A stretch of DNA of 46,567 bases from Lysobacterales bacterium (GTDB lineage Bacteria; Pseudomonadota; Gammaproteobacteria; Xanthomonadales; Rhodanobacteraceae): NCBI GenBank assembly GCA_017305055.1, contig JAFKMZ010000027.1, positions 1 through 46,567 of the forward strand, read 5' to 3'. The number at the start of each line of letters is the position of its first letter. Within the stretch, counting starts at the first letter, position 1. Below the pieces are notes generated by a model. That model was not told the origin of the DNA and searched no databases. It saw only the letters and a list, made by a program, of their open reading frames with translations. Below are positions 1-38,899 of the stretch, one piece after another. Both the position numbers and the translations under genes were made by a program.

Positions 1-1100
1 GAGCATCCCCGTTGCCGGCCGGCTTGAGGCCGGATGACTTCGATTACCTTCAGGCCAACAATCGCTATTGGTCGTACCTATGTGGGTTGGCCTCGGCAGA
101 GGCATTTCGGGGCAGCAAGGATAATTCGATCGCGTATCGCGACTCGAACACGGACGTGTTGGGCGATTCCGGGGGCTTTTCATACGGGTCTGGCAGCGGC
201 GAACCTGGCCAATGGCGGGGGTTAACGTGTGAGGCAGAAGTCGTGGCTGCCTGGCGCAACAGCGGCATTCTTGAGAAAACGGTCGACTGGATCGAGCGTT
301 ATGCTTCGGCTGGTTTGACCCTCGACCTGCCACTTTGGGCAGCACGACCGGTGAATTCGGAGTCACCATTCCACCTATGCTCCGCAATGACCCTGCTAGC
401 GTTGAGCATGGAACACGTCCAATACCTGCTCGATCGTAAGTCTGCGGGAAGACTCAAACGGAAATACCTCAACGTTCTGCAAGGCGATAAGGAGGCCGAC
501 GAAGAGGTTTGGTACCAGCAGGCGCGGCAGTATCGGCTAGACGGGTGGAGCTTCGCGGGTGGCGTCGGCACCGATGGCGGACCTTATAGAATTATTCGGC
601 GCCTGCTGACCCTCCGGGACGATGGTCTTCTCGGTTCGGGGTTGAACTGGGTGCATCTCCTCAAACAGACGCAGCTCCGCTGGGCCCCCGTCCTCACGGC
701 CATGCAGCGGGGCATCCAGCGCTCCATCGGTGCCGAGGACTTCAAGATTACCTATGACAGCAGCACCCCCTATCAGGAGGCCGGCAAGCGTGAGCGATTT
801 GTCGAAGCCCCCGCGCTCGGTCCGTCCCTCGTAGGCTGGCACTTCAAATATCATAAGTTCCCGACGACTTTTGGTGTGGCGACCGCTGCGGTGCCGCTAT
901 CCTTGGCCACTGCAACCTGCACGGCTCAGAAATGCACTATGTGCCAAAGTCAGGGCTCACATCTTGATGCTCCGCTGCTCAGCCCGATCGCGCAACTTTT
1001 GACCATTCAGGATTTGCTGGAGCGGAAGGGAAACCTCATTACCCGCCGGGGCAGTGTTCTGGCCGATGAGGTGCTGATCAACCACAACGTTTTTACGGTG
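1..1100 (+). other. dpdA: DpdA-like segment (7-deazaguanine DNA transglycosylase family), lower GC
   Basis: Translation shows TGT-superfamily landmarks: GDSGGF around Asp52, a second Asp in LTLDLPLW (D105), LNVLQG (153-158), the FAGG stretch (181-184) and KITYDSSTP with Asp249 at the place of the TGT nucleophile. A candidate zinc site follows (C303, C308, C311, H317). In bacteria and phages DpdA acts with the dpd cluster to place preQ0/ADG-type bases in DNA. A sampled line here (361-420) is about 55% GC, against about 80% in 1201-1260. The segment is cut at the left edge and joined in frame to HMG-CoA reductase at about 1085-1135. The family call is by motif recognition only. Confidence 0.65.
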
Positions 1101-2615
1101 GTGGAGGGCATCATCCGCGCCAACGACCTGGCCATCGTCGACCCCTACCGGGCGGCCACCCACAACAAGGGTGTGATGAACGGCGTGGATGCCGTGGCCC
1201 TGGCCACCGGCAACGACTGGCGCGCGCTGGAGGCCGCCGCCCATGCCTACGCCGCCCGGGGCACCAGCTACACGTCCTTGACCAGCTGGTCCAAGGATGC
1301 GGACGGCAACCTGGTCGGCAGCATCGAGATGCCGATGAAGGTCGGCATCGTCGGCGGTCCGCTGCAATCCAACCCAACGGTAGCGCTCAACCACCACCTG
1401 CTCGGAGCGAAGAGCGCCCGCGAGCTGGCCGAGGTGATGGGTGCAGTCGGCCTGGCGCAGAATTTTTCCGCCCTCCGCGCCCTCGTCACCGACGGCATCC
1501 AGCACGGCCACATGCACCTGCACGCGCGCAGCGTGGCGATTGCCGCCGGCGCCACGGCGGAGATCTTCGACGCCGTGGTCCGGCGCCTGCAGGAAGAGGG
1601 CGAGATCAAGATCTGGCGGGCGCAGCAGATCGTCGCCGAACTGCGTCAGGACAGCACGCCCAAGCCGGCGCGCCGCGCGCGACAGGCTGCCGCGGAGGAG
1701 TTCTCGGCCGGGCACGGCAAAGTCATCCTGCTCGGCGAGCACGCCGTGGTGTATGGCCGCCACGCCATTGCCGGGCCTGTGCCGCTGGCGATCCGCGCGC
1801 GCGTGCAGGCGGCGGAGCAGGGCATCCACCTGGTGATCCCGCGCTGGGGCATCGAGCAGCGACTGCAAAAGGGCGTGGCCAGTCCCGATTCATTCCAGCG
1901 TTCGCTGCTGATGATCCTGGAAACGCTGGGCATTGCCGACCGCGCCCTGCAGATCGAGGCCTATCCCTGCGTGCCGCGTGCGATGGGGTTGGGTGGCTCG
2001 GCGGCTCTGGCGGTGGCGGTGATCCGCGCGCTGGACAGTTTCTGCAAGCTCAACCTGGGCGACGAGCGGATTTGCGCGCTGGCTTTCCAATGCGAGCGCA
2101 TCGCGCATGGCACGCCTTCCGGCATAGACAATACGGTGGCCACGTTTGGACGCCCGCTGCTGTACCAGCGCGGCGATCCGCCGACGGTGCAGACCCTGAC
2201 GCTGCGCCAGCCTTTGCCGCTGGTCATCGGCATGAGTGGCACCGAGAGCCTGACCGCGCGCATGGTGGCGCGGGTGCACGAGGCCTGGGAGCGCAATCGC
2301 GCCCTGTACGAGCGCATCTTCGACGAGATCGATACCTTGACACTGCACGCGCTCGAGGCCCTGCGGGCCGGTGACACTGCCCAGCTGGGTGAATTGATGA
2401 ACATCTGCCAGGGCCAATTGAACGCGCTGCAGGTTTCCTGCTCGCAGATCGAGCAACTGGTGCAGCTGGCCCGCGACAACGGCGCAGCCGGCGCCAAGCT
2501 CACTGGCGGCGGTGGCGGCGGTTCGGTGATTGCGTTGTGCCCGGACGGCGGCCAGAAGGTCGTGCAGGCGATGCAGAACGCCGGCTACCAGGCGATGGAG
2601 GTGGCGTTTGGATAG
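12..2615 (+). CDS. Chimeric ORF: DpdA-like segment + C-terminal HMG-CoA reductase + mevalonate kinase (5' partial)
   Basis: A single 867-codon frame from a TTG start, still open to the left window edge, so the true start may lie outside. Residues 1 to about 355 resemble DpdA, the TGT-family enzyme that inserts 7-deazaguanine into DNA. Residues about 365-547 match the C-terminal half of class II HMG-CoA reductase, and residues about 562-867 are a GHMP-family mevalonate kinase. The reductase part keeps the equivalents of catalytic Lys267 (K386), Asp283 (D402) and His381 (H500) of the Pseudomonas mevalonii enzyme. It lacks about 245 N-terminal residues, including the catalytic Glu and the NAD-binding domain. 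The kinase has all three GHMP motifs: GKVILLGEHAVV (569-580), a GLGGSAA motif, and a Gly-rich GAKLTGGGGGGS near the C-terminus. The kinase is probably functional; the reductase as joined here cannot be. The idi gene overlaps the 3' end. Confidence 0.8.
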   Translation: MPAGLRPDDFDYLQANNRYWSYLCGLASAEAFRGSKDNSIAYRDSNTDVLGDSGGFSYGSGSGEPGQWRGLTCEAEVVAAWRNSGILEKTVDWIERYASAGLTLDLPLWAARPVNSESPFHLCSAMTLLALSMEHVQYLLDRKSAGRLKRKYLNVLQGDKEADEEVWYQQARQYRLDGWSFAGGVGTDGGPYRIIRRLLTLRDDGLLGSGLNWVHLLKQTQLRWAPVLTAMQRGIQRSIGAEDFKITYDSSTPYQEAGKRERFVEAPALGPSLVGWHFKYHKFPTTFGVATAAVPLSLATATCTAQKCTMCQSQGSHLDAPLLSPIAQLLTIQDLLERKGNLITRRGSVLADEVLINHNVFTVVEGIIRANDLAIVDPYRAATHNKGVMNGVDAVALATGNDWRALEAAAHAYAARGTSYTSLTSWSKDADGNLVGSIEMPMKVGIVGGPLQSNPTVALNHHLLGAKSARELAEVMGAVGLAQNFSALRALVTDGIQHGHMHLHARSVAIAAGATAEIFDAVVRRLQEEGEIKIWRAQQIVAELRQDSTPKPARRARQAAAEEFSAGHGKVILLGEHAVVYGRHAIAGPVPLAIRARVQAAEQGIHLVIPRWGIEQRLQKGVASPDSFQRSLLMILETLGIADRALQIEAYPCVPRAMGLGGSAALAVAVIRALDSFCKLNLGDERICALAFQCERIAHGTPSGIDNTVATFGRPLLYQRGDPPTVQTLTLRQPLPLVIGMSGTESLTARMVARVHEAWERNRALYERIFDEIDTLTLHALEALRAGDTAQLGELMNICQGQLNALQVSCSQIEQLVQLARDNGAAGAKLTGGGGGGSVIALCPDGGQKVVQAMQNAGYQAMEVAFG
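1101..1655 (+). pseudogene. C-terminal fragment of class II HMG-CoA reductase
   Basis: Residues about 365-547 of the long frame carry DPYRAATHNKG, ATGNDW, HAYAAR, SLTSW and GHMHLHAR. These are the hallmark motifs of NAD(H)-type class II HMG-CoA reductases, which interconvert HMG-CoA and mevalonate. The spacing from K386 to D402 (16) and to H500 (114) equals that of K267, D283 and H381 in the P. mevalonii enzyme. The N-terminal substrate-binding part with the catalytic Glu and the whole small NAD-binding domain are absent, replaced by DpdA-like sequence. No stop codon or in-frame ATG or GTG separates it from the mevalonate kinase, so the two are one polypeptide joined by a linker rich in Ala, Arg and Pro (about 547-563). 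Confidence 0.75.
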
Positions 2616-3186
2616 GCAACCGGCCGCCGGCGCCAGCGTCTCCTCGGAGGCCGAGGAATTGATCCTGGTCGATGCGCTGGACCGCGTCCTGGGCCATGCG
2701 AGCAAGGCGGATTGCCACGACGGAGACGGCATCCTGCATCGCGCCTTCTCGCTCTTCGTGTTCAACCCCGACGGCGCCCTGCTGCTGCAGCAGCGCAGCG
2801 CCGGCAAGCGCCTCTGGCCTGGCTACTGGGCCAACACCTGTTGCAGTCATCCGCGCCGCGGCGAGAGCCTGGATGAGGCGGCGCAGCGCCGCCTGGAGCA
2901 GGAATTGGGCATGCGCTGCGAGCTGCGCTACGTGTACAAGTTCCAGTACCAGGCGCGCTACGGCGAGCGGGGATCGGAGCATGAGCTGTGCTCGGTGTTC
3001 GTCGGTAGCACGGCGGCGGCGGTGCAGGCGAATCGGACCGAGGTCGCGGCCTGGCGTTTCGTCATGCCTGAAGTGCTCGACGCCGAAATGGCGACCACCC
3101 CCGAGCGGTTCACGCCGTGGCTGCGGTTGGAATGGCAGCGCCTGCGCGGTGATTTCCGGCACGAGCTGCCCACACCACTTGGCTGA
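2608..3186 (+). CDS. idi: Isopentenyl-diphosphate delta-isomerase, type 1
   Basis: 192-aa Nudix-fold enzyme that interconverts IPP and DMAPP, the last step shared by isoprenoid routes. Key residues are Cys79 in NTCCSHP (the E. coli Cys67 equivalent) and Glu126 in EHELCSVF (the Glu116 equivalent). The Nudix-like stretch RRGESLDEAAQRRLEQELG runs from about residue 83. I chose the TTG start at 2608 because GGAGGTG lies about 6 bases upstream and no ATG or GTG start fits. The start overlaps the stop of the mevalonate kinase frame, so translation is probably coupled. With mevalonate kinase next door it points to a mevalonate-pathway operon running in from the left. Confidence 0.9.
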   Translation: MDRQPAAGASVSSEAEELILVDALDRVLGHASKADCHDGDGILHRAFSLFVFNPDGALLLQQRSAGKRLWPGYWANTCCSHPRRGESLDEAAQRRLEQELGMRCELRYVYKFQYQARYGERGSEHELCSVFVGSTAAAVQANRTEVAAWRFVMPEVLDAEMATTPERFTPWLRLEWQRLRGDFRHELPTPLG

Positions 3187-3272
3187 GCCGGCCGCGCCGC
3201 GTCTGCAATCCGCGGGATGGGGTTGACCTGTCACCTGGTGCGACGCGGATCGCCGGCAGGTTGGCGCAGGCC

Positions 3273-3278
3273 TATACT
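3273..3278 (+). promoter_or_regulatory. Candidate -10 element (TATACT) ahead of the DUF1993 gene
   Basis: TATACT lies 32 bases before the ATG at 3310 in the 123-base gap after idi. No convincing -35 hexamer sits at 16-18 bases, so this is a weak sigma-70-type guess. The same TATACTCG string recurs in the psd/prmB intergenic region. Confidence 0.35.
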
Positions 3279-3309
3279 CGCGCAGGTTTTTCATCCGTGG
3301 AAGGAATTC

Positions 3310-3822
3310 ATGATGGGCACATGCATGTACGACGCGTCGGTCCCGGTACTGCGGCAGATGCTGGGCAGCCTCGATGCCATCCTTGAAAAAGCCGAAAGGC
3401 ATGCCGCGAAAAGGCACATCGAGCCGGCGGCGCTGCTCCAGTCGCGACTGTTTCCGGACATGTTCACCCTTTCCCGCCAGGTGGCCATCGCCTGCCATTT
3501 CGCGCGCAGCGTGGCGACCGAACTGGCGGTCGTGGATGCGCCGCAAGCCAAGCATGCCGGTGACAGCTTTGCCGACCTGCGGGCGCTGGTCGCCGAGGCG
3601 TTGCGCGTGGTTGCCGCGCTGACGCCTGCGCAGTTTGAAGGCAGCGAGCAGCGCGAGGTGACCGTCCATGCCGGTACACCGCACGAGGGCCGCTTCAGCG
3701 GCGAGAAGTACCTGCTGCACTACGCCATGCCGCAGTTCTTCTTCCATGTCACCACGGCCTATGCGCTGCTGCGCCACGCCGGGGTGGAGATCGGCAAGCG
3801 CGACTTCCTCGGCAAGTTCTGA
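3310..3822 (+). CDS. DUF1993 family protein (DinB-like fold)
   Basis: 170-aa soluble protein. The opening, with SVPVLRQMLGSLDAILEKAE, and the end, with SGEKYLLHYAMPQFFFHVTTAYALLRHAGVEIGK motifs, are typical of the DUF1993 family, which is predicted to form a DinB-like four-helix bundle. The HY-MPQFFFH stretch near residue 140 is the family signature. No reaction is established for the family. The ATG at 3310 follows GGAAGGAA at the right distance; ATG 3313 is an alternative. The gene stands alone between idi (same strand) and psd (opposite strand), and its 3' end converges with psd. Confidence 0.8.
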   Translation: MMGTCMYDASVPVLRQMLGSLDAILEKAERHAAKRHIEPAALLQSRLFPDMFTLSRQVAIACHFARSVATELAVVDAPQAKHAGDSFADLRALVAEALRVVAALTPAQFEGSEQREVTVHAGTPHEGRFSGEKYLLHYAMPQFFFHVTTAYALLRHAGVEIGKRDFLGKF

Positions 3823-3861
3823 GCGCGCCGGGCCGCGCGCCAGCGGCAGGCTGCGCGCGGT

Positions 3862-4722
3862 TCAACCGGGTGCCGATGCCGCCATGCAGCGGCCCAGGCG
3901 TTCGCCGACGCGCACCGGCTGTTCCGGCTGCCACGCGTCGAGCGTGGCGACGCCGCCGGGCAGCAGCACGATGACCGTGGACCCCATGTTGAAGCGCGCC
4001 ATCTCGGCAAAGCGCTCGAGCACGACCTGGCCGTCGGGGAATGCCTTGCGCCGGATGGAGCAGGCATACGGCGGGATCACCAGGCCGTCCCACACTGTGG
4101 CGATCGACGATACGAGCATGGCCCCGACCAGCACCACGGCAAACGGCCCGTGTGGCCCGTCGAAATGGCACACCAGGCGCTCGTTGCGGGCAAACAGGCG
4201 TGGAATCCCGGCCACCGCAAACGGGGCCACGCTGAAGATCCGCCCCGGCACGTGCACGGTTTCCCGCAGCGTGCCACCCAGCGGCATGTGCACGCGGTGG
4301 TAGTCGCGTGGCGACAGGTAGACGGTGACGAAGGTCCCGTCACGATAGGGTGCGGCTGCCACCTGGTCGCCACCCAGCAGCTCGACCACGCTGTAGTCCT
4401 GACCCTTGGCCTGGAACATGCGGCCGTCACTGATCGGTCCGGCCTGGCTGATGCGGCCGTCGGCCGGGGACAGCAGTGCCTGCGCATCGGCATCGGCCCG
4501 GCGCGCCTCCCGTCGCAGCCTGCGGGTGAAGAACGCATTGAAGTGCTGGTACGCCATCGCGTCGGGTTGCAGCGCCTCGCTCATGTCGACCTGGTAGCGG
4601 CGCAGCACCGTGCCGATCAGCCAGTTCTTCCACGGCGCGAAGGTCCAGCGCGTGGCATGGTAGACCAGCCGGGACAGGGCGCGATGGGGCAGGATGTATT
4701 GCAACAGCAGGCGGATGCTCAT
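3862..4722 (-). CDS. psd: Phosphatidylserine decarboxylase proenzyme
   Basis: 286 aa, the normal length for the short bacterial form. It decarboxylates phosphatidylserine to phosphatidylethanolamine at the inner membrane. Asp88 in SPADGR, His142 and His145 in YHRVHMP and the self-cleavage site MGST (Gly247-Ser248) are all present. E. coli has LGST, so Met replaces Leu at the first position, a variation that leaves the Gly-Ser cleavage intact. Ser248 becomes the pyruvoyl cofactor of the alpha chain. It is divergent from prmB across 80 bases that contain mirrored TATACT boxes. The minus-strand TATACT is only 6-11 bases from the start codon, which suggests a very short or leaderless mRNA or a later start. 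Confidence 0.95.
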   Translation of the reverse strand: MSIRLLLQYILPHRALSRLVYHATRWTFAPWKNWLIGTVLRRYQVDMSEALQPDAMAYQHFNAFFTRRLRREARRADADAQALLSPADGRISQAGPISDGRMFQAKGQDYSVVELLGGDQVAAAPYRDGTFVTVYLSPRDYHRVHMPLGGTLRETVHVPGRIFSVAPFAVAGIPRLFARNERLVCHFDGPHGPFAVVLVGAMLVSSIATVWDGLVIPPYACSIRRKAFPDGQVVLERFAEMARFNMGSTVIVLLPGGVATLDAWQPEQPVRVGERLGRCMAASAPG

Positions 4723-4727
4723 CGGCG

Positions 4728-4772
4728 GAGTATACGGAACGGCCGGGCGTGGCCGGTGCCGGTCGTATACTC
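4728..4772. promoter_or_regulatory. Mirror-image divergent promoter region between psd and prmB
   Basis: A perfect 9-base inverted repeat: GAGTATACG at 4728-4736 and CGTATACTC at 4764-4772, with a 27-base GC-rich spacer. Each arm contains TATACT reading outward: 4766-4771 on the plus strand toward prmB, 4733-4728 on the minus strand toward psd. They could be paired -10 elements, or a dimeric operator that covers both. Confidence 0.45.
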
Positions 4773-4802
4773 GGCGACCGCCTGCCTGCCACCGGAGTGA
4801 CC

Positions 4803-5729
4803 GTGACCGCAGAACTCGCCTCCATCATCGATTTCATCCGCTATGCGGCGAGCCGCTTCGCCGCGGCCGGCCTCACCTTCGGGCACAGCCACGACAACCC
4901 GATCGACGAGGCGGCGCATCTGGTCCTGGGCAGCCTGCACCTGCCGCCCGACCTGCCGCCTGCCTATGCTGCTGGCAAGCTGATCCAGGCCGAGCGCACC
5001 AGGATCCTCGAACTGATCGAGCGGCGTATCGCCGAACGCGTGCCGGTGGCCTATCTGGTCGGCGAAACCTGGTTTGCCGGGCTCAAGTTCAAGAGCGACC
5101 GCCGCGCATTGGTGCCGCGCTCGCCGATCGCCGAGTTGATCGAATCGGGCTTCGTGCCCTGGCTGGACGAGCGTCCGGTCGAGGCCGCGCTGGACCTGTG
5201 CACGGGCTCGGGATGCATCGGCATCGCGATGGCCGCATACAACCCCGACTGGCGTGTGGACCTGGCCGACATTGACGCCGATGCGCTCGCGCTGGCGGGC
5301 GAGAACATCGCACGGCACCAGCTTGGCGACCGGGTCGAGGCCATCCGCTCGGATTTGTTCGCCGGCCTGCACGGGCGCCGCTACGACCTGATCGTCAGCA
5401 ATCCACCATACGTCACCGGTGCTGAGTACGCGGCCTTGCCAGCGGAGTACGCGCACGAGCCCAGGCGCGGCCTGCTGGCAGGAGACGATGGCCTGGATCT
5501 GTGCCTGCGCATCCTGGATGGGGCCGCCGCGCACCTCAGCGAGGACGGCCTGCTGATCGTCGAGGTCGGCGAGAGCGAGCGGGCGCTCGCCGACCTGCTG
5601 CCCCAACTGCCGCTGGTGTGGCTCGAGTTCAAGGTCGGCGCCATGGGCGTGTTTGCCGTGGAGCGGGCGGATCTCGTTGCCCACGCCGAGGCGATCCGCA
5701 CCGCGGCGGCCGGACGTCCAAAACCATGA
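4803..5729 (+). CDS. prmB: Ribosomal protein uL3 N5-glutamine methyltransferase
   Basis: 308-aa SAM-dependent methyltransferase. It methylates a glutamine of ribosomal protein L3 before ribosome assembly. The SAM-binding motif [10 protein letters not shown] is at 131-140 and the catalytic NPPY at 200-203. [11 protein letters not shown] (about 104-114) separates PrmB from the release-factor enzyme PrmC. I chose GTG 4803 because GGAG lies 5 bases upstream; GTG 4797 is an alternative. The aroC gene follows 64 bases downstream on the same strand, an order conserved in Xanthomonadales. Confidence 0.93.
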
Positions 5730-5793
5730 CGAGGTTGTTGCCTGCGGCGGGTTGTCGCTAAGCTGTGCCGGTCATCCCGGGCGATCGCCATTC

Positions 5794-6897
5794 GTGTCCA
5801 GCAACTCCTTCGGCAAGCTGTTTACCGTCACCACGTTTGGCGAGAGCCACGGCCCAGCCATCGGTTGCGTGGTCGACGGCTGCCCACCCGGCCTGGCGCT
5901 GGCGTCGGAGGAGTTCAAGCCCGACCTGGTTCGCCGCTCCACGGGACGCAGCCGCTACTCCTCGCAGCGCCATGAGGCGGACGAGGTGGAGATCCTGTCC
6001 GGGGTCTACGAGGGCCATACCACCGGTACCCCGATCGCCCTGCTGATCCGCAACACCAACCAGCGCAGCCGCGACTACGAACGCATCGCGCAGACCTTCC
6101 GCCCGGGGCATGCCGACTACACCTACTGGCAGAAGTACGGCATCCGCGATCCGTGTGGCGGCGGGCGGGCGTCGGCACGTGAGACGACGATGCGCGTCGC
6201 GGCCGGGGTCATCGCCAAGAAATGGCTGGCCGAGCGCCACGGCGTGCGCGTGCGCGGCTACCTCGCCCAGCTTGGCGACATCACCCCGGACGGTTTCGAC
6301 TGGGACGCGGTCGAGGCCAATCCGTTTTTCTGGCCGCATGCGGCACAGGTGCCCGCGCTGGAGGCGCGCATCAACCAGTTGCGCAAGGCGGGCGATTCGG
6401 TCGGAGCGCGGGTCGATGTGGTGGCGGATGGCGTCCCACCCGGTTGGGGCGAGCCGGTCTACGGCAAGCTGGACGGAGAATTGGCCGCCGCGCTGATGTC
6501 GATCAATGCGGTGAAGGGCGTGGAGATCGGTGACGGCTTTGCGGTCGTGGCCCAGCAGGGGAGCCAGCACCGCGACGAGATGCTCGTGGATGGTTTTGCC
6601 TCCAATCATGCCGGAGGGATTCTCGGTGGCATCAGCAGCGGTCAAGAATTGCGCGCCTCGATTGCGCTGAAGCCGACCTCCAGCATCCTCATCCCGGGCC
6701 ACAGCGTGGACCTGGCCGGTGCGCCGGCCGAAGTGGTCACCAAGGGGCGGCACGATCCCTGCGTGGGCATCCGCGCCACGCCGATCGCCGAAGCCATGGT
6801 GGCTCTGGTATTGATCGACCAGGCCCTGCGCCATCGTGCGCAGTGCGGCGACGTTGGCGCGGTGAATCCACGCATTCCCTCCGGACCGGTGGCCTGA
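5794..6897 (+). CDS. aroC: Chorismate synthase
   Basis: 367 aa. It converts EPSP to chorismate using reduced FMN, the last shikimate-pathway step, and so feeds the tryptophan genes found further on. Signatures are GESHGPAIG (16-24), [14 protein letters not shown] (about residues 106-119) with the following [10 protein letters not shown], and GGISSGQ. GTG 5794 gives a start (residues [19 protein letters not shown]) and length that match the family; upstream residues are unlike AroC. The next gene starts 4 bases after the stop, so the two are probably cotranscribed. Confidence 0.95.
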
Positions 6898-9436: not shown

Positions 9437-11761
9437 ATGAATCGCTTCTTCAAGTTGCCGCTGGTGATTGCCTTGACGTTGGCCAGCACACAACTGCTGG
9501 CCGTGGATTTTGGCCAGGTTCGGGTCCTGTCCAATCTCGGCCAGCCGCTCCTGGCGGAAATTCCGTTGCATGGCGCGAGTCCAGCCGAATTGAAGGGCTT
9601 GACCGCAAGCCTGGCCTCGCCCGGTGAATACGAACGCGCCGGCATCAGCGGCGGTCGCACCACGGTACCCCTGAGCTTCAGCGTCGTTGCCGGTCAGGGC
9701 GGCGAGCACTTCATCCGTATTTCCAGCACCGCGCCGGTCGACGACCCTTACCTCGACCTGCTGCTGGACGTGAATACCGCCGCCGGAAAGAGCGTGCACG
9801 AATTTGCCATACTGCTCGATCCGCCCAGCGCGAACGAGGCGCCGATCGCACGCGCGCAGACCCCGGCGCGCGTCGCGCCAGGCAGCGCCCCCGCGATGCC
9901 CCAGGCTGCGGCCGCCACGCGGCCCGCCGCGCCCACGCCAGCGGCCGCTCCAGCGCCTGCAGGCAAGAGCTCCGGAGCCGTGGTGAAGGGTATGTATGGA
10001 CCGGTGGAGCCTGGCCAGACCCTGTCCGGGATCGCTCAGCAGACGCTGCCGGCAGGGGTGGACATCAACCAGATGCTGCTGGCGCTCAAGCAGGCCAACC
10101 CGGATGCGTTCTATCGCGACAACATCAATACCTTGAAGTCTGGCGTGGTGCTGCGCGTACCCAGCGCCGCCGACGCCGAGACCATGACCGCAGCTGCGGC
10201 GATCGCCGAAGTCCGTCGCCAGAATGGCGAATGGCGTACTGGCGACGTCGGTACACCGGCGGCCGTGGCCAACGCGGCAACACGCCCATCCACCTCGAAC
10301 GCTGCCGCGGCCAGCGACGCGAATAGAGGTGACCGGCTGGCCTTGCTGGCGGCGAAGGATACTGGCAAGTCCGGGGCCGACGGCACTCCTGCCGGCGGGT
10401 CGGCCGCTGAGCTGCGCAAGAGCCTGCTGCAGGCCCAGGAAGGGCTGGCCAGCGAGCGGCAGCAAGTGGCTGACCTGCAAGCGCACGTGAAGCAACTCGA
10501 TGACGTCAATCGCAAGAGCGAGCGCCTGCTGTCGCTGAAGGACAACGAGATTGCCGAACTGCAGGCAAAGCTGGCTGCGGCGCGCAAATCCGGCTTTGCG
10601 GCGCCGGCTTCGGCAGCCTCCAGCGCGCCAGCGTCGACTGCGGTCGTTGCCTTGGCCACGGCGCAATCGGCGGCACGCGCCCTGACTGCGGGGACACCGG
10701 CTGCTGCTGTTTCGAGCTCCGCAGCGGCGCTGGCCGCGGCCGGCAGTGCCGGCGTGGCCGCTTCGGCGTCGAGTGTCACCGCAGGTGCCAGCGCTTCGCC
10801 TGCAGCGGCCTCTGGGGTCAAGCCGGCACCGGCTGTGGCGAAACCGGCGTTGCCAGCCCAGCCCTGGTACATGCAAACCTGGGCCTGGATTGCGGGTGTC
10901 GGGGTCATCGTGCTGTTGATCCTGGGCGGCTTGCTTGGTCGCCAGCGCAAGCGTCCGGCCCCACCGGTGCAGAAGACCGCGCCGTCCCTTGCCGACAGTT
11001 TTGGTGCCGGGGCGGCGGTTGGCGAGCCCCCGGTGGACGATGTCGACCATGGTGATCTGCTCGACCAGCTCGCCGAGCATCCGGATGACCTCGGCCTGCA
11101 CCTGCAATTGGTGACGCTGTACTACTCGCGCCGTGACATCGAGCACTTCGAGGCGGCGGCAGAGGCGATGTATGCACACATCACCGATCCGGAGCAGGAC
11201 GAGTGGCAGGACGTGGTCCACATGGGGGAGGACCTTGTGCCCGGGCACCCGTTGTTCTCGCATCAGGGGCAGCCACCGGGCATGCCGTTGCATGCGCCGC
11301 TGGAAGATTTCAACATCGACGACTACGTGAACGACGATGCGACCGTGGAGACTCCGGTCACCGGATCGCCGGCAGCTGCCGAGGCCTCGACCGGCTATCC
11401 GACGGCTGCCGATGTGCCGCTGGAATTCGGTGACACGGATGCGCCTGCCGGCCTGCACGCTGTCTCGGACCGTCTCGACGTCAACCCGGATGAACTGGTT
11501 GACGGCACCGCGGCGTCAGGCAGCGGCCGAAGCCCGGTGGGTACCGTGGATATCGCGCCCGGGCAGGAAATCGACGGGGTGGACGACCAGCTCGGCGAGT
11601 TCAACGATGATCCGATCGACACCAAGCTCGACCTGGCCCGAGCCTATCTCGACATGGGCGACGAGGAGGGTGCGCGGGCCATGCTGGACGAGGTGCTGAA
11701 GGAAGGCAGCCAGATGCAGAAGGATGTCGCCACCGGACTGCTCGGCGGCCTGCAAACCTGA
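9437..11761 (+). CDS. fimV: FimV-like polar hub / pilus assembly protein
   Basis: 774 aa. A signal peptide (residues 1-23) precedes the FimV N-terminal domain (VDFGQVRVLSNLGQPL, about 23-130). An Ala/Pro-rich linker is followed by a LysM peptidoglycan-binding domain (about 185-240), a coiled coil (about 323-385), an Ala/Ser-rich linker, one membrane segment (about 481-501) and an acidic cytoplasmic tail. The tail ends in the FimV C-terminal helix pair (about 721-773, IDTKLDLARAYLDMGD). FimV organises the cell pole for type IV pili and twitching. I chose ATG 9437, after GGGGGA, because the signal peptide begins there. The asd-fimV-truA order is the Xanthomonadales arrangement. Confidence 0.9.
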   Translation: MNRFFKLPLVIALTLASTQLLAVDFGQVRVLSNLGQPLLAEIPLHGASPAELKGLTASLASPGEYERAGISGGRTTVPLSFSVVAGQGGEHFIRISSTAPVDDPYLDLLLDVNTAAGKSVHEFAILLDPPSANEAPIARAQTPARVAPGSAPAMPQAAAATRPAAPTPAAAPAPAGKSSGAVVKGMYGPVEPGQTLSGIAQQTLPAGVDINQMLLALKQANPDAFYRDNINTLKSGVVLRVPSAADAETMTAAAAIAEVRRQNGEWRTGDVGTPAAVANAATRPSTSNAAAASDANRGDRLALLAAKDTGKSGADGTPAGGSAAELRKSLLQAQEGLASERQQVADLQAHVKQLDDVNRKSERLLSLKDNEIAELQAKLAAARKSGFAAPASAASSAPASTAVVALATAQSAARALTAGTPAAAVSSSAAALAAAGSAGVAASASSVTAGASASPAAASGVKPAPAVAKPALPAQPWYMQTWAWIAGVGVIVLLILGGLLGRQRKRPAPPVQKTAPSLADSFGAGAAVGEPPVDDVDHGDLLDQLAEHPDDLGLHLQLVTLYYSRRDIEHFEAAAEAMYAHITDPEQDEWQDVVHMGEDLVPGHPLFSHQGQPPGMPLHAPLEDFNIDDYVNDDATVETPVTGSPAAAEASTGYPTAADVPLEFGDTDAPAGLHAVSDRLDVNPDELVDGTAASGSGRSPVGTVDIAPGQEIDGVDDQLGEFNDDPIDTKLDLARAYLDMGDEEGARAMLDEVLKEGSQMQKDVATGLLGGLQT

Positions 11762-28503: not shown

Positions 28504-29073
28504 CTAGGCAGTTTGCGCCGGCCCCGCCTGTGGCGCCATGCGTGGAAAGCGGGTTGCGATGTCCTCGCCGGTGAACTGGGCGACCCAGCCGTCCTTGTTG
28601 GTGAACAGGCGGATGGCGACGAAGTAGGGCGACTCGCTCATGTCGAACCAGTGGCGCGTGCCGGCCGGGACGCCAATCAGGTCACCCTGCTCGCACAGCA
28701 CGTCGTATACGCCACTGTCCAGGTGCAGGGTGAACTGGCCGGAGCCGGCCACGAAGAATCGCACCTCGTCCTCGCTGTGCCGATGCTCGCTCAGGAACTT
28801 CGCCCGCAGCGCAGCCCGGTCGGGATGATCGGGAGCGAGGCTGATGACGTCGACCGACTGATAACCTCCGGCGGCCATCAGGCGGTCGATGTCGGCGCGA
28901 TAGGCGGCGACCACTTCGTCCTGGCTTGCGCCCGGACTGATCGGCTGGCTGGCGGCCCAACGCTCGAAGCGTACGCCGACCTTGGCCAGAGCAGTGGATA
29001 TCGCAGCGTGGTCGGTCAAGGTCTCGGTCGGGGCTTCCGGCCAGGCTTCGTCGAAAATGCGCAGTCGGCTCAT
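28504..29073 (-). CDS. mtnD: Acireductone dioxygenase
   Basis: 189-aa cupin enzyme that uses the acireductone made by MtnC. With Fe it yields the keto acid precursor of methionine; with Ni it gives an off-pathway product plus CO. The metal ligands are His97, His99, Glu103 (EHRHSEDEVRF) and His141. The start overlaps the mtnB stop by 4 bases, so translation is coupled. Confidence 0.95.
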   Translation of the reverse strand: MSRLRIFDEAWPEAPTETLTDHAAISTALAKVGVRFERWAASQPISPGASQDEVVAAYRADIDRLMAAGGYQSVDVISLAPDHPDRAALRAKFLSEHRHSEDEVRFFVAGSGQFTLHLDSGVYDVLCEQGDLIGVPAGTRHWFDMSESPYFVAIRLFTNKDGWVAQFTGEDIATRFPRMAPQAGPAQTA

Positions 29074-29723
29074 GATGTCTGCAACCTCCTCAGGTCCATT
29101 TCGCAGCCCAGCAGGAACTCCAGGGCCTCCAGGTGGCGGCGTGCCTCGTCGACATCGCGCCCCCATGTGTACAGACCGTGTCCGGCGATCAGGTAGGCAC
29201 ATAGCGGCTTGCCGCTGTCCAGCCAAGCGTCGACGCAGGCGACGAGCTCCGGCATGTGCTGGGTGTTGGGGAATACCGGTATGTCCACCACGCCGTCATG
29301 CGTGGTATGGCCATCGAGCGCCTTTTGCAGTTCCCAGCCCTGCAGGCGTACCAGGCCACGTTCCGCATACAGGCGCGAGGCCACGCTTTGCACCTGGGAA
29401 TGCGTGTGCAAGACCATGTCAGTGATGGGAAAGCGCCGGTAAATCTGCAGGTGCAATGCGGTCTCGGCGCTCGGACGCGAAGTTCCAGACACCGCTTGCC
29501 CGTTGCCGTCCACCAGCATGATGTCGTCCACGCTTGCGTGACGCTTGTCGCAGCCGGAAATCGTGATGGCCGCGTACGGGGTGGCGCCGACCCGCATGGA
29601 AAAGTTGCCGCTGGTCGCCGGTGTCCAGCCCAGGGCGCCAAGCTCGCGCGCGGTACGCGCCACCACCGGCGCGCAGGTTGCGAATTCGTCTGCGGTGGGG
29701 CCAGCGGCGAATGCTTGCTTCAT
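29070..29723 (-). CDS. mtnB: Methylthioribulose-1-phosphate dehydratase
   Basis: 217-aa class II aldolase-fold enzyme that dehydrates methylthioribulose-1-phosphate ahead of MtnC. Zinc ligands are His106 and His108 (LHTHSQ) and His182 (AGHGLYTWG), with Glu87 as the likely base. It is the first gene of the mtnB-mtnD-mtnC operon. The gene for MtnA, which makes its substrate, is not in this window. A palindrome, TGGACGTCCA, sits 6 bases before the start. Confidence 0.95.
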   Translation of the reverse strand: MKQAFAAGPTADEFATCAPVVARTARELGALGWTPATSGNFSMRVGATPYAAITISGCDKRHASVDDIMLVDGNGQAVSGTSRPSAETALHLQIYRRFPITDMVLHTHSQVQSVASRLYAERGLVRLQGWELQKALDGHTTHDGVVDIPVFPNTQHMPELVACVDAWLDSGKPLCAYLIAGHGLYTWGRDVDEARRHLEALEFLLGCEMDLRRLQTS

Positions 29724-29729
29724 GGCTTC

Positions 29730-29739
29730 TGGACGTCCA
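29730..29739. promoter_or_regulatory. Palindrome TGGACGTCCA at the mtnB start
   Basis: A perfect 10-base palindrome 6 bases upstream of mtnB, resembling the MetJ core AGACGTCT in its central GACGTC. TATAGT (minus strand, 29756-29751) nearby could be the -10, and the palindrome would lie around the transcription start. A single box is weak evidence. Confidence 0.3.
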
Positions 29740-29889
29740 AATCGATCATGACTATAACATGCGGGGCTCCGGCCAATTGCGCAAATGAGAGTTATTCGCG
29801 GAAGTCAGGGAAGGTTTCCCGAGTAGAGTTACGATGCATGCGGCCCAGCGGCGCAGCTGTGGATGGGTCGACCAGATGGAGATTGCAGC

Positions 29890-30219
29890 ATGTCGAATGA
29901 AACAGATATCGAGTCACGCCGGCGCTTCCTCAAGCTGGCCGCGGGTACGACCGTCGCCGCTGCGGTGGTTGGTGGCTTGCCCCGTTTTGCCCACGCTGCC
30001 GACCTGCCGGCGCTGGCGGAATCCGACCCCATGGCCAAGGCCTTGCATTACGTCGAGGATGCGACCAAGTCGAAGGATCCCAAGTACAAGGCCGGCCAGG
30101 ACTGCACCAATTGCCAGTTCTATTCCGGCGGCGCAACGGGCCGTGGTCCGTGCCAGCTGTTCCCGGGCAAATCGGTCAATGCGAAAGGGTGGTGCGTTTC
30201 GCATACGCCGAAGGCTTGA
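29890..30219 (+). CDS. High-potential iron-sulfur protein (HiPIP), Tat-exported
   Basis: 109 aa. A twin-arginine signal (SRRRFLK at 9-15, hydrophobic to FAHA at 36) precedes a small domain with four Cys (C72, C75, C88, C102) in the HiPIP spacing CxxC...C...C, which holds one [4Fe-4S] cluster cycling 3+/2+. HiPIPs carry electrons in the periplasm, often to cytochrome oxidases or photosynthetic centres. Tat export fits folding with its cluster in the cytoplasm. The gene is divergent from the methionine-salvage operon and followed by a hairpin terminator. It appears monocistronic. Confidence 0.92.
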   Translation: MSNETDIESRRRFLKLAAGTTVAAAVVGGLPRFAHAADLPALAESDPMAKALHYVEDATKSKDPKYKAGQDCTNCQFYSGGATGRGPCQLFPGKSVNAKGWCVSHTPKA

Positions 30220-30243
30220 TATCACGCTTGCAGCAGGACGCAG

Positions 30244-30266
30244 GAAGGCCGGCATTGCCGGCCTTC
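30244..30266 (+). terminator. Hairpin terminator after the HiPIP gene
   Basis: Perfect 10-bp stem GAAGGCCGGC/GCCGGCCTTC with a 3-base loop ATT, followed by TTCGTTGTTG, a T-rich but interrupted tail. It lies 25 bases after the stop. Confidence 0.75.
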
Positions 30267-30493
30267 TTCGTTGTTGGGGTAGGCGTGGAGATGGCTGCGG
30301 ATCAAGATGGCGCTGGCTCGATGTCACCAAGGGCCGATACCGGACAAGTTGCTGCCCGGAACACGCCAGGCTGAGGAGCTGATTCGCCTGACGCGCCGGG
30401 CAGCGATCCCGGGGTCCACTGCCAAGTGATAATCCCACGGTCCGCTGATAGTACTCCGATAGTCGCAAAATGGGCGCGCCCGCCGTCGATTTC

Positions 30494-30591
30494 TTGCGGA
30501 AATAACTCGTTAAATAGTTATAAAACAATATGTTATGTAATATTTGTATTGTCGTGATGATGTATCGACGCGGAGCGGGTATCGCCCCGCT
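30494..30591 (+). promoter_or_regulatory. AT-rich segment with inverted repeats and possible plus-strand promoter
   Basis: TTGCGG (30494) and TTATAA (30518) could be -35 and -10 with an 18-base spacer. ATAACT/AGTTAT (30502-30507, 30516-30521) and ACAATA/TATTGT (30525-30530, 30547-30552) form inverted repeats. A hairpin AGCGGG/CCCGCT (30574-30591) then TTTC could end a very short RNA. No gene follows on the plus strand. Confidence 0.25.
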
Positions 30592-30670
30592 TTCATGCCA
30601 ATTCGACGACGTTTACCGATGCTTGTCGATGTTTGTAGCAAATTCTTGGGATTCAACGAAGTTACGCAAA

Positions 30671-32131
30671 TCAGCCTGTCTTGCGTACGGTGCTGTGCCG
30701 GTAGCCGTAGAGGAAGTAGATGGTCAAGCCGAGGGCAGTCCATATGATCATCAGCATCCAGTTGTACCAAGCCATGAACGACAGCAGGGCGACGCAACTC
30801 AGGATGCCCAATGAGCAAATCAGCGGCGCCCACGGTACGCGGAATGTCCGTGGCAGTTCCGGGTGCGTGTAGCGCAGGATCCAGACGCCGGCGCAGACCG
30901 CGATGAACGCGATCAAGGTACCCATGGAGACCAGTTCACCGAGTACATCCAGGGGGAAGATCGCGGCGAGCAGGGCGATGCCGGCGCCGGTCACCAGGGT
31001 GTTGAGGTGTGGTGTGCGATGGATCGGATGCACGCGCGTGAACAGCTTGGGCAACATCCCGTCGCGGGCCATGATCATGAAGATGCGCGGCTGCGCGATG
31101 ATCATCACCAGCACCACGGATGCCAGGCCGAGCATGGCCCCGACTTCCACCACCCAGCGCAGCCAGGACAGCTGCGGATGCCCCTGCAGCGCGGTCACTA
31201 CCGGTTCGTTCGTGCCCAGGATCGTGTACGAGTTGAGGCCGGTCATGACTGCGGCCATGGCGATGTAGAGCACGGTGCAGATGGCCAGTGAGCCAAGGAT
31301 CGCGATCGGCAGGTCACGCTGTGGGTTGCGCGACTCCTGCGCGGCCACCGAGGTGGCCTCGAAACCGATGTAGGCAAAGAACACCATCGCGGCCCCGCGC
31401 ATGACGCCGCCCCAGCCATAGCGGTCGTGACCTTCCGAGGGCGGTACGAAGGGTACCCAGTTCGAAGGGTCCACATACCGCCAGCCGACCACGATCACCA
31501 GCAGGACCAGGCCGACCTTGATCGCCACCATGATCGAGTTGACCAGGCTCGACTCACGGATACCGACATAGCAGACCCAGGTGAGCAGGGCGATCAGGGC
31601 GACGGCAGGCAGGTTCAGCAGCGCCCCGGTGGTGACCAGCTGATGGTCGGCGGTGAATGCCAGCGGGGCACTGGTGAGAGCCGCCGGCAAGCTCAAATCC
31701 ATGTTGAACACTGCGCCTACGTGGTTGAGAAGACTCAGGAAATAACCAGTCCAGCTCACCGCGACCGCCGATGCGGATACACCATACTCGAGTACCAGGT
31801 TCCAGCCGATGAACCAGGCCATGAGCTCGCCCAAGGTGGCGTAGGCATAGGAATAAGCGCTGCCGGAGAGTGGGATCAGCGTGGCGAATTCGGCGTAGCA
31901 CAAGGCGGTGAACGAGCTGCAGATTGCCGCCAGCAGGAACGACAGCACCACGGCGGGTCCGGCGTGATCCGCGGCCGCCACGCCGGTGATGACGAAGATG
32001 CCGGCGCCAATCACGGCGCCGATGCCGATCGCCGTCAGCCCCCAAGGACCCAAGGTGCGTCGCAGCGTAGGGCCATCGCCTTCCAGGTCTTCGCGGAAGT
32101 CGGTCTTGCGCGCGAGCAATTGCTTGAGCAT
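30671..32131 (-). CDS. APC-family amino-acid permease (cationic amino-acid transporter type), copy 1
   Basis: 486 aa with about 12-13 membrane helices. The first helix has GIGAVIGAGIFVITG, the substrate-binding Gly-rich stretch of the APC fold, and FFAYIGFEATSVAAQESRNPQRDLP is the helix-6 unwinding region with the conserved ESRNPQRD loop of the YfnA/CAT branch. It moves amino acids into the cell with ions. It is the downstream member of a pair of related permeases. Tail: GYRHSTVRKTG. Confidence 0.88.
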   Translation of the reverse strand: MLKQLLARKTDFREDLEGDGPTLRRTLGPWGLTAIGIGAVIGAGIFVITGVAAADHAGPAVVLSFLLAAICSSFTALCYAEFATLIPLSGSAYSYAYATLGELMAWFIGWNLVLEYGVSASAVAVSWTGYFLSLLNHVGAVFNMDLSLPAALTSAPLAFTADHQLVTTGALLNLPAVALIALLTWVCYVGIRESSLVNSIMVAIKVGLVLLVIVVGWRYVDPSNWVPFVPPSEGHDRYGWGGVMRGAAMVFFAYIGFEATSVAAQESRNPQRDLPIAILGSLAICTVLYIAMAAVMTGLNSYTILGTNEPVVTALQGHPQLSWLRWVVEVGAMLGLASVVLVMIIAQPRIFMIMARDGMLPKLFTRVHPIHRTPHLNTLVTGAGIALLAAIFPLDVLGELVSMGTLIAFIAVCAGVWILRYTHPELPRTFRVPWAPLICSLGILSCVALLSFMAWYNWMLMIIWTALGLTIYFLYGYRHSTVRKTG

Positions 32132-32240
32132 GGATTTGGATCTTCAGGTGGGGACGACGCGGCAGGGGTGTGGGCTCGACCGGCTTGCTGCCCTGCCCAG
32201 ACGATGCGGCCAGCGCCAGGGCGCCGGCCGCTGCATGGCC

Positions 32241-33764
32241 TTACGCTGGCTTGCGGCGCAGCCGGCTGTGCCGATAACCGTAAAAGCCATAGATGCAAAA
32301 ACCGAGGACAGTCCAGCCGATCAGCAGCGGCCACAAGGTCTTGAACGCCTGCCAGAACAGGAACAGGCAAATGGCGGCACCGAGCGGGCACACCAGCCAG
32401 TACATCGGAACCCGGAATGCACGGGGAATTTCCGGCCGCGTGCGGCGCAGGACTGCCACGCCGATGCATACCGTGCTGAACGCCAGGAGCGTCCCCATGG
32501 ATACCAGGTCGCCGAGCACGCCTACCGGGAACAGGCCGGCCAGGGTCGCCGCGATGAGGCCGACGATGATCGTGCCGACGTAGGGGGTGCGGTGTTTCGG
32601 GTGCAGCTTGCCAAACGGCTTTGGCATCAGCCCGTCATTGGACATGGTGTAGAAGATGCGCGGCTGACCCATCAGCATCACCAGCACCACCGAGCTCAAG
32701 CCGGCCAGGGCGGCAAACACCACCAGGATCTTCATTCCGCTCAGCACATAGCTGGCGGTACTCCCGGCGGCGACCGTGCCCAGCACGTAGTTGAGGGCGG
32801 TGGCGACCGGTTCGGGCGTGTTCAGTTCGCGGAACGGGGCAAGTCCGGTCAGGGCGGCGGCCATGGCGATGTACAGGATGGTGCAGATCGCCAGCGAGCC
32901 CAGGATACCGATCGGCATGTCGCGCTGCGGGTTCTTTGCTTCGCCCGCTGCAGTCGATACCGCGTCAAAGCCGATATAGGCGAAGAACACCAGGGTGGCG
33001 CCACGGACCACACCGGCCCAGCCAAACGCGTCCCCACCTTCGTTGGGCGGAATGTACGGGTGCCAGAAATCCGTATTGATGAACTTGAACGTGACCACCA
33101 GGAACAGGAGGATCACGATCACCTTGATCGCCACGATGACGGCGTTGACCGTTGCCGACTGCGTGATGCCGCAATAGCACAGGTAGCTGATCGCCGCGAT
33201 GATGACGATGGCTGGAATGTTGAGGAAGGCACCCGTGGCAACGATGTGGTGGTCCACATAGGTGAATGGCGCGGCGGCCAAGGCCGCCGGCAGGCTGAAG
33301 TTCCAGCCGGTCGCCGAAGTCAGCATGCTCAGGAGCTCGTTGAAGTAGCCCGACCAACCCACCGCCACCGTTGACGCCGCGAACAGATACTCGAGCACCA
33401 GGTTCCAGCCGACAAACCAGGCCACCACCTCGCCCAGCGTTGCGTATGAATATGAATAGGCGCTGCCGGATACCGGCAGCATCGCCGCGAACTCGGCGTA
33501 GCACAGCCCAGCCAACCCGCAGGCGACGCCCGCGAGGATGAAACTGATCGTGAGTGCGGGGCCGGCAAACTGGGCTGCGGCCGTTCCTGTCAGCACGAAG
33601 ATGCCGGCGCCGATGACGGCTCCGATCCCGAGCATGATGAGGTGCTTGGCTGTCAGGACCCGCTTCAGCGTGACCTCGCCACCAATGTCGCCCTCGACCG
33701 GTTCGCCGGCGTCTACGTGCGGCATGGCCTTGATGGGATGGGTGGCAAACAGGTTTTCGATCAT
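32241..33764 (-). CDS. APC-family amino-acid permease (cationic amino-acid transporter type), copy 2
   Basis: 507 aa, clearly paralogous to its downstream neighbour (same GIGAVIGAGIFV helix 1, GEAKNPQRDMPIGILGSLAICT region and GYRHS tail). It is about 20 residues longer at the N-terminus. The order, 109-base spacing and shared strand imply one transcript starting upstream of 33764, probably after a local duplication. The 263 bases to parE hold no gene. Substrate preference cannot be fixed. Confidence 0.88.
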   Translation of the reverse strand: MIENLFATHPIKAMPHVDAGEPVEGDIGGEVTLKRVLTAKHLIMLGIGAVIGAGIFVLTGTAAAQFAGPALTISFILAGVACGLAGLCYAEFAAMLPVSGSAYSYSYATLGEVVAWFVGWNLVLEYLFAASTVAVGWSGYFNELLSMLTSATGWNFSLPAALAAAPFTYVDHHIVATGAFLNIPAIVIIAAISYLCYCGITQSATVNAVIVAIKVIVILLFLVVTFKFINTDFWHPYIPPNEGGDAFGWAGVVRGATLVFFAYIGFDAVSTAAGEAKNPQRDMPIGILGSLAICTILYIAMAAALTGLAPFRELNTPEPVATALNYVLGTVAAGSTASYVLSGMKILVVFAALAGLSSVVLVMLMGQPRIFYTMSNDGLMPKPFGKLHPKHRTPYVGTIIVGLIAATLAGLFPVGVLGDLVSMGTLLAFSTVCIGVAVLRRTRPEIPRAFRVPMYWLVCPLGAAICLFLFWQAFKTLWPLLIGWTVLGFCIYGFYGYRHSRLRRKPA

Positions 33765-34027
33765 CGGGTTCCAGGCTCCCCTTCAGGTGATCCCGCTCGG
33801 GTCTGCGCCGCGGCGCAGAGACGTTGGCTCGCTGTCGCAATAGTTCGCGAACATAGCGTAGCGGCCGCGCCAGTACAAGTTTCGTTCAGCATGGCGTCGG
33901 TGCGCACCGAGGCTCTGCCGGCATGGGCAATACGGTCGCGGCGTGACTGGGATCGAGGGGCTGCCTGCGTTCGCGGCGGCGCACGCGATGCCTGCGCCGA
34001 GGTTGGCGTTGGCACAAGTCTGGCGGC

Positions 34028-35926
34028 TCACACTTCCAGCGTCGCCAAGTCGCCTTTCTCTTCCAACCAGGCCTTGCGGTCGGCAGCGCGCTTCTTGGAC
34101 AGCAGCATGTCCATGAGCTTTGCCGTACTGGTGTCGCCACGGTCACCCGGAACGGTGAGCTGCACCAGTCGTCGGGTATCCGGATGAATGGTGGATTCGC
34201 GCAACTGCGGGGGGTTCATTTCGCCCAGGCCCTTGAAGCGAGTGGTGCTGACCGCGCCCTTGAGCTTGTCCTTCTCGATCTTCTGCAGCACGGCCTGCTT
34301 CTCGCTTTCGTCGAGGCAGTAGAACACCTGCTTGCCGACGTCGACCCGGAACAGCGGCGGCATGGCGATGAACACGTGGCCCTCGGCCACCAGCCGTGGA
34401 AAGTGCCGCAGGAACAGTGCCGAGAGCAGGGTGGCGATGTGCAGGCCATCGGAGTCGGCGTCAGCCAGCACGATGACCTTGCCGTAACGCAGGCCCGAGA
34501 GATCTTCGGTGCCGGGATCGCAGCCGATGGCCACGGCCAGGTTGTGCACTTCCTCGGAGGCCAGGACCTGGGTGGATTCCACTTCCCAGGTATTCAGGAT
34601 CTTGCCGCGCAGCGGCAGGATGGCCTGGAACTCCCGGTCGCGCGCCTGCTTGGCGCTACCGCCGGCCGAATCGCCCTCGACGAGGAACAGCTCGGTACGG
34701 CTGAGGTCCGTGGCGGTGCAGTCGGCGAGCTTGCCGGGCAGGGCGGGGCCCTGCGCGATCTTCTTGCGTACGACCTGCTTGGAAGCCTTCAGGCGCAGCG
34801 CAGCGCGCTCGATCGCCAGCTGGGCGATGCGCTCGCCCACCTCGACATGCTGGTTGAGCCAGATGCTGAAGGCATCGTGGATGATGTTCTCCACCATGCC
34901 CGCGGCGCTGCGTGAGGACAGGCGCTCCTTGATCTGGCCGGCAAACTGCGGATCCTGCAGGCGGGTCGAAAGCACGAACGACAGGCGTTCCCACACGTCC
35001 TCCGGCGCCAGCTTGACGCCACGCGGCAACAGGTTGTGCAGGTCGCAAAACTCGCGGACGGTGCTGGTCAATCCACTGCGCAAGCCGTTGACGTGGGTGC
35101 CGCCCTGCAGGGTGGGGATCAGGTTGACGTAGCTTTCCTGCACCGGCTCGCCCTCGGGCAGCCAGGCCAGGGCGATTTCAAGGCCTTCGCTGTCGCGGGC
35201 GGTCTGGTGCACAAAGAGCTCGCCCGGCAGGGCTTCGACGCCATCGAGTTCGCCGCGCAGGTAGTCGCGCAGGCCATCCTCGTAATGCCAGCGGCAGGAT
35301 TCGCCGCTGGCCTCGTCGTGCAGTTCCACGGTCAAGCCTGCACACAGCACGGCCTTGGCGCGCAGCAGGTGCTTGAGCTTGCCGAGTGAAATCTTCGGCG
35401 AGTCGAAATAATGGGCCTCGGGCCAGAACTTCAGCGTGGTGCCGCTGTGGCTCTTGGGCACGCTGCCCACGGTTTCCAGTTCGCTGGCCTTGTCGCCGTG
35501 GGCAAACGCCATGCGGTATTCGCTCCCGTGCCGGCGCACGGTGACCTCGACGCGCTCGGACAAGGCATTGACCACGGACACGCCGACGCCGTGCAGGCCG
35601 CCGGAAAAGTTGTAGTTCTTGCCGCTGAATTTCCCGCCGGCATGTAGGCGGGTCATGATCAGCTCGACGCCGGAGACGTGTTCCTCCGGATGGATGTCCA
35701 CCGGCATGCCGCGCCCATCGTCGCTCACCTCCACCGAGCCATCGGCATGCACGGTGACATCGATGTGCTTGGCGTAGCCGGACAGCGCCTCGTCCACGGC
35801 GTTGTCGACCACTTCCTGCACCAGGTGGTTTGGTCTGGTGGTGTCGGTGTACATGCCGGGGCGGCGGCGGACTGGGTCCAGGCCAGACAGGACTTCGATG
35901 TCGGCGGCGTCGTAATGGCTGGTCAT
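34028..35926 (-). CDS. parE: DNA topoisomerase IV subunit B
   Basis: 632 aa, the normal length. ATP-dependent decatenation of daughter chromosomes with ParC. The GHKL ATPase (VVDNAVDEALSG, DDGRGMPVD, GGLHGVGVSVVNAL at 109-122) is followed by a transducer domain with the K of the TLQGGTH region. A Toprim domain follows with EGDSAGGSAKQARDR and LADADSDGLHIATLL. The last form is the ParE, not GyrB, variant. ATG 35926 gives MTSHYDAADIEVLSGLDPVRRRPGMY. The gene is separated by 75 bases from the ABC transporter on the same strand. parC is not in this window. Confidence 0.96.
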   Translation of the reverse strand: MTSHYDAADIEVLSGLDPVRRRPGMYTDTTRPNHLVQEVVDNAVDEALSGYAKHIDVTVHADGSVEVSDDGRGMPVDIHPEEHVSGVELIMTRLHAGGKFSGKNYNFSGGLHGVGVSVVNALSERVEVTVRRHGSEYRMAFAHGDKASELETVGSVPKSHSGTTLKFWPEAHYFDSPKISLGKLKHLLRAKAVLCAGLTVELHDEASGESCRWHYEDGLRDYLRGELDGVEALPGELFVHQTARDSEGLEIALAWLPEGEPVQESYVNLIPTLQGGTHVNGLRSGLTSTVREFCDLHNLLPRGVKLAPEDVWERLSFVLSTRLQDPQFAGQIKERLSSRSAAGMVENIIHDAFSIWLNQHVEVGERIAQLAIERAALRLKASKQVVRKKIAQGPALPGKLADCTATDLSRTELFLVEGDSAGGSAKQARDREFQAILPLRGKILNTWEVESTQVLASEEVHNLAVAIGCDPGTEDLSGLRYGKVIVLADADSDGLHIATLLSALFLRHFPRLVAEGHVFIAMPPLFRVDVGKQVFYCLDESEKQAVLQKIEKDKLKGAVSTTRFKGLGEMNPPQLRESTIHPDTRRLVQLTVPGDRGDTSTAKLMDMLLSKKRAADRKAWLEEKGDLATLEV

Positions 35927-36001
35927 GCAGGTATTTCGTGCGGACAAAGACGACGAAGCATGGAGCGCGCAGGCGATCCTGGTCAAGCTGGCGCACGTAA
36001 T

Positions 36002-37849
<1,848 letters not shown>

Positions 37850-38848: not shown

Positions 38849-38899
38849 AGCGGCGCGGTGGTTGCAGGACCGTCGACAATGCGGACCGCTACCATCGGG

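Follow-up and report, generated by a model that had tools for sequence, protein, structure and literature searches.

An apparent fusion of a DpdA2-like protein with HMG-CoA reductase and mevalonate kinase at a contig end: very probably a chimeric assembly join

Chimeric contigs that combine different species are a known kind of artefact of short-read metagenome assemblies. They are relevant to the ORF described here, in which a DpdA-like part seems to be fused to enzymes of the mevalonate pathway. The naming of DpdA2 from Vibrio phage nt-1 is reportedly the work of Hutinet and colleagues. In the accessible part of PMC6884629, the name DpdA2 is indeed derived from phage nt-1. For a fusion of HMG-CoA reductase with mevalonate kinase, nothing was found in the literature by a strict term search, and in the accessible part of PMC13001223 the word 'fusion' occurs once, about IspDF.

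The ORF at the left end of the contig

The window, i.e. the whole stretch of 46,567 bp analysed here, is the complete contig C95 of the draft genome of a Lysobacterales bacterium (the host), which consists of 108 contigs and 3.50 Mb and is scored as 97.34% complete and 0.33% contaminated. According to the ORF list, a frame of 870 aa at 3..2615 is open at the left contig end and passes from a DpdA-like part across a joint into the C-terminal half of a class II HMG-CoA reductase with no intervening stop codon, as had been claimed in an earlier annotation made from the letters only (the sequence-only reading). A mevalonate kinase, absent from that reading, completes the ORF. The features at this end are as follows:

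1..1126, + strand: foreign stretch, part of a DpdA2-like (predicted TGT fold) gene of Rhizobiales bacterium 64-17; 100.0% identity to MKWA01000024.1 (locus L017)
1104..1126 (23 bp), + strand: zone fitting both sources, likely a false overlap; homology to five relatives and 100% Rhizobiales identity
1127..1670, + strand: C-terminal half of class II HMG-CoA reductase, host gene; PF00368 and TIGR00532, 67-78% protein identity to relatives
1713..2615, + strand: mevalonate kinase domain fused to the reductase; TIGR00549, same order in loci L003 and L004
2530..3186, + strand: isopentenyl-diphosphate isomerase-like ORF, next in the host cluster; name from reading the sequence

Within the ORF, PF00368 is matched with an E-value of 4.9e-47 at profile positions 202-368 of 368 and TIGR00532 at positions 254-395 of 395. 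Therefore, the N-terminal half of the reductase is missing from this frame, in agreement with the sequence-only reading, and the Pfam and NCBIfam profiles did not find this half, with its catalytic Glu and NAD-binding domain, in the window frame. The Lys, Asp and His positions described earlier as conserved could be matched to K267, D283 and H381 of the P. mevalonii reductase (1qax), which we take to be catalytic residues. When counted by hand along the alignment, these correspond to window codons 1167-1169, 1215-1217 and 1509-1511, respectively. The mevalonate kinase profile TIGR00549 is matched nearly from end to end (E 5.6e-73; positions 2-276 of 276, approximately 1713-2537).

Two other observations concern the rest of the window. 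At its right end (46490-46567), the last ~25 codons of the terminal ORF, a TonB-type receptor by reading, are unlike a continuation of that protein, and in the last 3 kb the DNA matches of relatives reach 46143 at most; 46490-46567 is possibly a second small end artefact. In addition, a local dip in GC to 54% is present at 30501-31000.

Two probable sources of one reading frame

The sequence-only reading had advised a search for the missing reductase half elsewhere. With the N-terminal half (274 residues) of the same-genus L003 protein as a query against the host genome, this half was retrieved on the minus strand of another contig (C44:2-661), being 75% identical to residues 8-226 of the L003 protein, with a frame that runs off the contig end. 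To judge by eye from their sequences, the adjoining ORFs on C44 would encode phosphomevalonate kinase and mevalonate diphosphate decarboxylase. Loss of the N-terminal half by the host was rejected, since the half is found on C44. In all five same-genus genomes compared (G006, G019, G024, G030 and G064, out of nine non-host genomes with strong DNA matches), the end of C44 is collinear with window position 1104 and lies exactly 77 bp from it. These five have a DNA identity of 77-78%, none of them being the same strain as the host, and they are collinear with the window DNA up to 3147-3162. A reference strain with an uninterrupted mvaA had been named beforehand as a sign of a chimeric assembly; the intact gene is present in genomes of the host genus, none of which is the host strain itself.

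The reductase part was matched in 15 of 60 genomes, i.e. the host itself, 12 strong matches and two weak ones among the relatives (E 4e-19 and 6.5e-5), and had no match in the other 45; therefore, the gene is patchy. The 12 strong matches lie in open frames of 750-1026 aa, and their C-terminal reductase halves are 67-78% identical at the protein level; the intact reductase-kinase frames of L003 and L004 measure 762 and 795 aa (by first start codon). The fused reductase-kinase is also patchy within the genus of the host, occurring in seven of the 35 other same-genus genomes of the first relatives search, and the genus search gave a strong DNA match in 9/44 other genomes. The reductase gene of the host itself is probably whole, with its two parts on separate contigs.

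The left part has a different source. Window 1-1126 is 100.0% identical, without gaps, to scaffold MKWA01000024.1 of Rhizobiales bacterium 64-17, with mismatches from 1127, and from there on the window and the scaffold are unrelated at the DNA level. The record of the scaffold is titled SCNpilot_cont_500, and 64-17 is a MAG. A pattern-based scan of genome contigs, which covers close relatives only and possibly excludes the window's own genome, found 15 stretches with the pattern, one of which encodes a relative; this is the 64-17 scaffold, where the protein of the left part is identical in 365/365 residues. By comparison, the protein of 3-1097 had no match in 196/196 other genomes in a relatives search around the host. 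The only other match of window 1-6000 in the 64-17 genome is 194 bp long at 71%. GC is lower in the left part, as stated in the sequence-only reading, with 58.8% (1-1103) versus 68.3% to the right of the joint (1127-2615), 66.0% in the rest of the window and 66.8% in C44; the Rhizobiales locus has a similar value of 57.8%. At third codon positions, GC is 68% in the left part versus 87% right of the joint. From the 6 kb around the DpdA-like gene (L017:8001-14000), only 1126 bp are present in the host genome (G000). A dpd-type island inserted in mvaA and ending inside this isoprenoid gene, the other option of the sequence-only reading, was rejected because of this restriction to 1126 bp of the 6 kb compared.

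The foreign identity ends at 1126 and, based on an alignment to the five same-genus genomes, the host homology begins at 1104; therefore, 23 bp fit both sources. Bases 1104-1126 are identical to each of the five relatives at 20/23 positions, compared to merely 14-15/42 for bases 1062-1103 and 27-29/35 for bases 1127-1161. The boundary, previously described as blurred to about 1085-1135, is in fact sharper. C44 itself stops before the bases of this zone. Some weak reductase likeness also appears upstream of 1104, where PF00368 is matched from residue 43 of window:900-2615, and the N-terminal half of L003 has a weak second match over the joint (C95:1059-1169; 46% over 37 residues, E 4.7e-4). The likeness upstream of 1104 was set aside, because the DNA there is 100% Rhizobiales and matches the relatives at just those 14-15 of 42 positions, and the C95:1059-1169 match is attributed to the short overlap together with genuine reductase sequence past the joint. 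By a naive equal-base estimate, two genomes with sizes of 3.5 and 4.6 Mb share ~29 20-mers by chance, with ~29,000-41,000 shared 20-mers or 450-650 shared 23-mers for an assembly of 179-213 Mb. The assembler idba_ud starts from k-mers near 20. According to the accessible part of PMC5458468, which is not tied here to 64-17 or the host, idba_ud was used, after trimming to 150 bp, to assemble two SCNpilot 'solids' datasets.

With a probability of about 97%, we consider the apparent fusion gene to be an artefact, a chimeric join made in the assembly of a mixed community. The possibility of two wrongly joined contigs, raised in the sequence-only reading, is thereby supported. The organism switches abruptly, from Rhizobiales 64-17 (1-1126) to same-genus DNA (1104 onward), and the true partner lies at another contig end (C44:2-661, with the 77-bp gap in 5/5 genomes), both being marks of a chimera. 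Most likely, the host has an ordinary fused HMG-CoA reductase and mevalonate kinase gene in a mevalonate-pathway cluster. The assembly would have broken inside the reductase gene, one side becoming the end of C44 with the upstream genes and the N-terminal half, and the other side being erroneously lengthened to the left with 1.1 kb from the Rhizobiales bacterium, which gave the present left end of C95. A chance overlap of ~20 bases within 1104-1126 probably caused this join. Going by the relatives, the host gene would be continuous over 77 unassembled bases, and both bacteria were presumably sequenced from one community. The frame would then have stayed open across the joint by coincidence, with a chance of very roughly one third, which was counted against the chimera.

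The open frame would suit a very recent horizontal transfer, in which a mobile DpdA-bearing piece identical to that of 64-17 recombined into the host reductase and formed an in-frame fusion; a phage-type integrase is located near the Rhizobiales copy and the region could therefore be mobile. However, out of the 6 kb around the Rhizobiales copy the host has no more than 1126 bp, starting at a contig end, and the other reductase half ends C44 77 bp short of the joint, as measured in 5/5 relatives. Such a transfer would also need 1126 bp of identity between genomes that otherwise share the one 194-bp match at 71% (window 1-6000), and it would break a pathway gene and come without the DpdA C-terminus, making it very improbable. 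Even less probable is that a mobile DpdA2-like base-exchange enzyme was truly fused in frame, very recently, to a truncated HMG-CoA reductase-mevalonate kinase via 23-bp microhomology recombination between distantly related bacteria of one community.

The DpdA2-like gene of Rhizobiales bacterium 64-17

With a chimeric join as the preferred explanation, the left part is a fragment of a gene that is complete in 64-17 (L017 ORF 9893-11287, 464 aa). Relatives of its protein were matched in 5/298 genomes, 64-17 itself included, the best other one being G275 with 35% identity over residues 2-457 of the L017 protein. Past the joint, the L017 tail aligns to the G275 tail with a score of 54, which was reached by 0/2000 shuffles, versus a score of 17 for the window tail (1890/2000 shuffles). 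The opposite is seen with the L003 reductase-kinase, where the window tail scores 242 (0/2000 shuffles) and the L017 tail 25 (1606/2000 shuffles). Next, an alignment was made with 51 of the 77 complete viral ORFs of 380-620 aa, from 80 loci kept out of at least 578; the remaining 26 ORFs were left out by eye for redundancy, with no measured threshold. In the column of residue 410, the site of the joint, Asn is found in 52/52 proteins, all 51 viral relatives included, with at least 20 residues beyond. On these comparisons, the Rhizobiales version is a natural gene. A misassembled Rhizobiales scaffold, with the DpdA-like DNA belonging to the host, would fit the presence of the same sequence in both drafts and the fact that 64-17 is itself a MAG, but was rejected as the least probable reading, given that the ORF is complete with a tail homologous to the G275 protein, that the 51 aligned viral relatives all continue past the Asn, and that the GC of 1-1103 is like that of the Rhizobiales locus and unlike the 66-68% of the host.

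The description of the left part as DpdA-like held for the predicted fold of its intact version, and no curated sequence model matches it. Searches of the left part up to E 1 gave no Pfam, NCBIfam or PADLOC model, and no more than two PHROGs (E 0.2). Similarly, the six bacterial and phage members of the DpdA2-like family that were scanned matched neither a Pfam family nor a PHROGs model, and within the host genome the sole match of PF01702 (TGT) is an ordinary tgt on C77, outside the window. A single-sequence PDB search gave no matches. With a six-member profile searched up to E 10, 26 of the 27 PDB sequences retrieved were TGT (E ~2), nearly all being variants of the same enzyme, and a 52-member profile retrieved no TGT and two unrelated weak matches. 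An AlphaFold2 model of the intact 464-aa L017 protein (mean pLDDT 80.8, pTM 0.86) matched 140 PDB entries at E <= 0.001. The best 50 of these 140 are all TGT, with a best E-value of 1.6e-7, TM-scores of 0.41-0.46 by query length, rmsd of 7.4-8.8 and 11-14% identity. Among viral models, the L017 model matched the 464-aa Vibrio phage nt-1 protein R9TGF0 (E 4.2e-10), presumably nt-1 DpdA2 (YP_008125322), and some annotated phage TGTs. Based on this model, 'DpdA2-like, TGT fold' seems a fair label for the intact version.

At the sequence level, one weak match was observed on plasmids (Azospirillum, 24%, E 3e-3). Two scans against phages each gave 13 records, all with less than 60% identity and all annotated as 'hypothetical protein', and a viral scan with the single protein as query gave no relative. 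With the family alignment, at least 578 candidate loci encoding relatives were found on viral contigs (80 kept, L046-L125), and the DpdA2-like family looks widespread in these contigs. The phage-type integrase upstream in L017 is matched by PF13356 and PF22022 above the cut-off and by PF00589 below it. A search for tRNAs at the island found none. The DpdA2-like gene is directly preceded by a gene of unknown family in L017 (8144-9889 before 9893-11287) and in L040 (110-1510 before 1486-2868). The partners encoded in L017 and L040 are homologous (27% over 165 aa, E 2e-19), and the L017 partner had no Pfam or NCBIfam match up to E 5. The DpdA2-like gene and its partner may form a small mobile DNA-modification module.

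Comparison with known systems

At the contig end of a high-scoring draft, a chance overlap of ~20 bases can thus create a convincing in-frame 'fusion protein'. When drafts are mined for new fusions or islands, contig ends need to be tested first.

The L017 protein resembles DpdA2 of Vibrio phage nt-1 and the TGT family in its predicted TGT-like fold, but differs from the latter in having no Pfam TGT match, and its role in DNA modification is putative. The domain order of the host part is the same as in the fused reductase-kinase of L003 and L004, whereas C95 has foreign DNA in place of the N-terminal half and the host's own half is located on C44. As in known inter-species chimeric contigs, unrelated genomes appear to be joined at a short shared sequence close to a contig end, with the true half at the end of another contig; unlike in those, the join in C95 keeps the reading frame and reads as a fusion protein.
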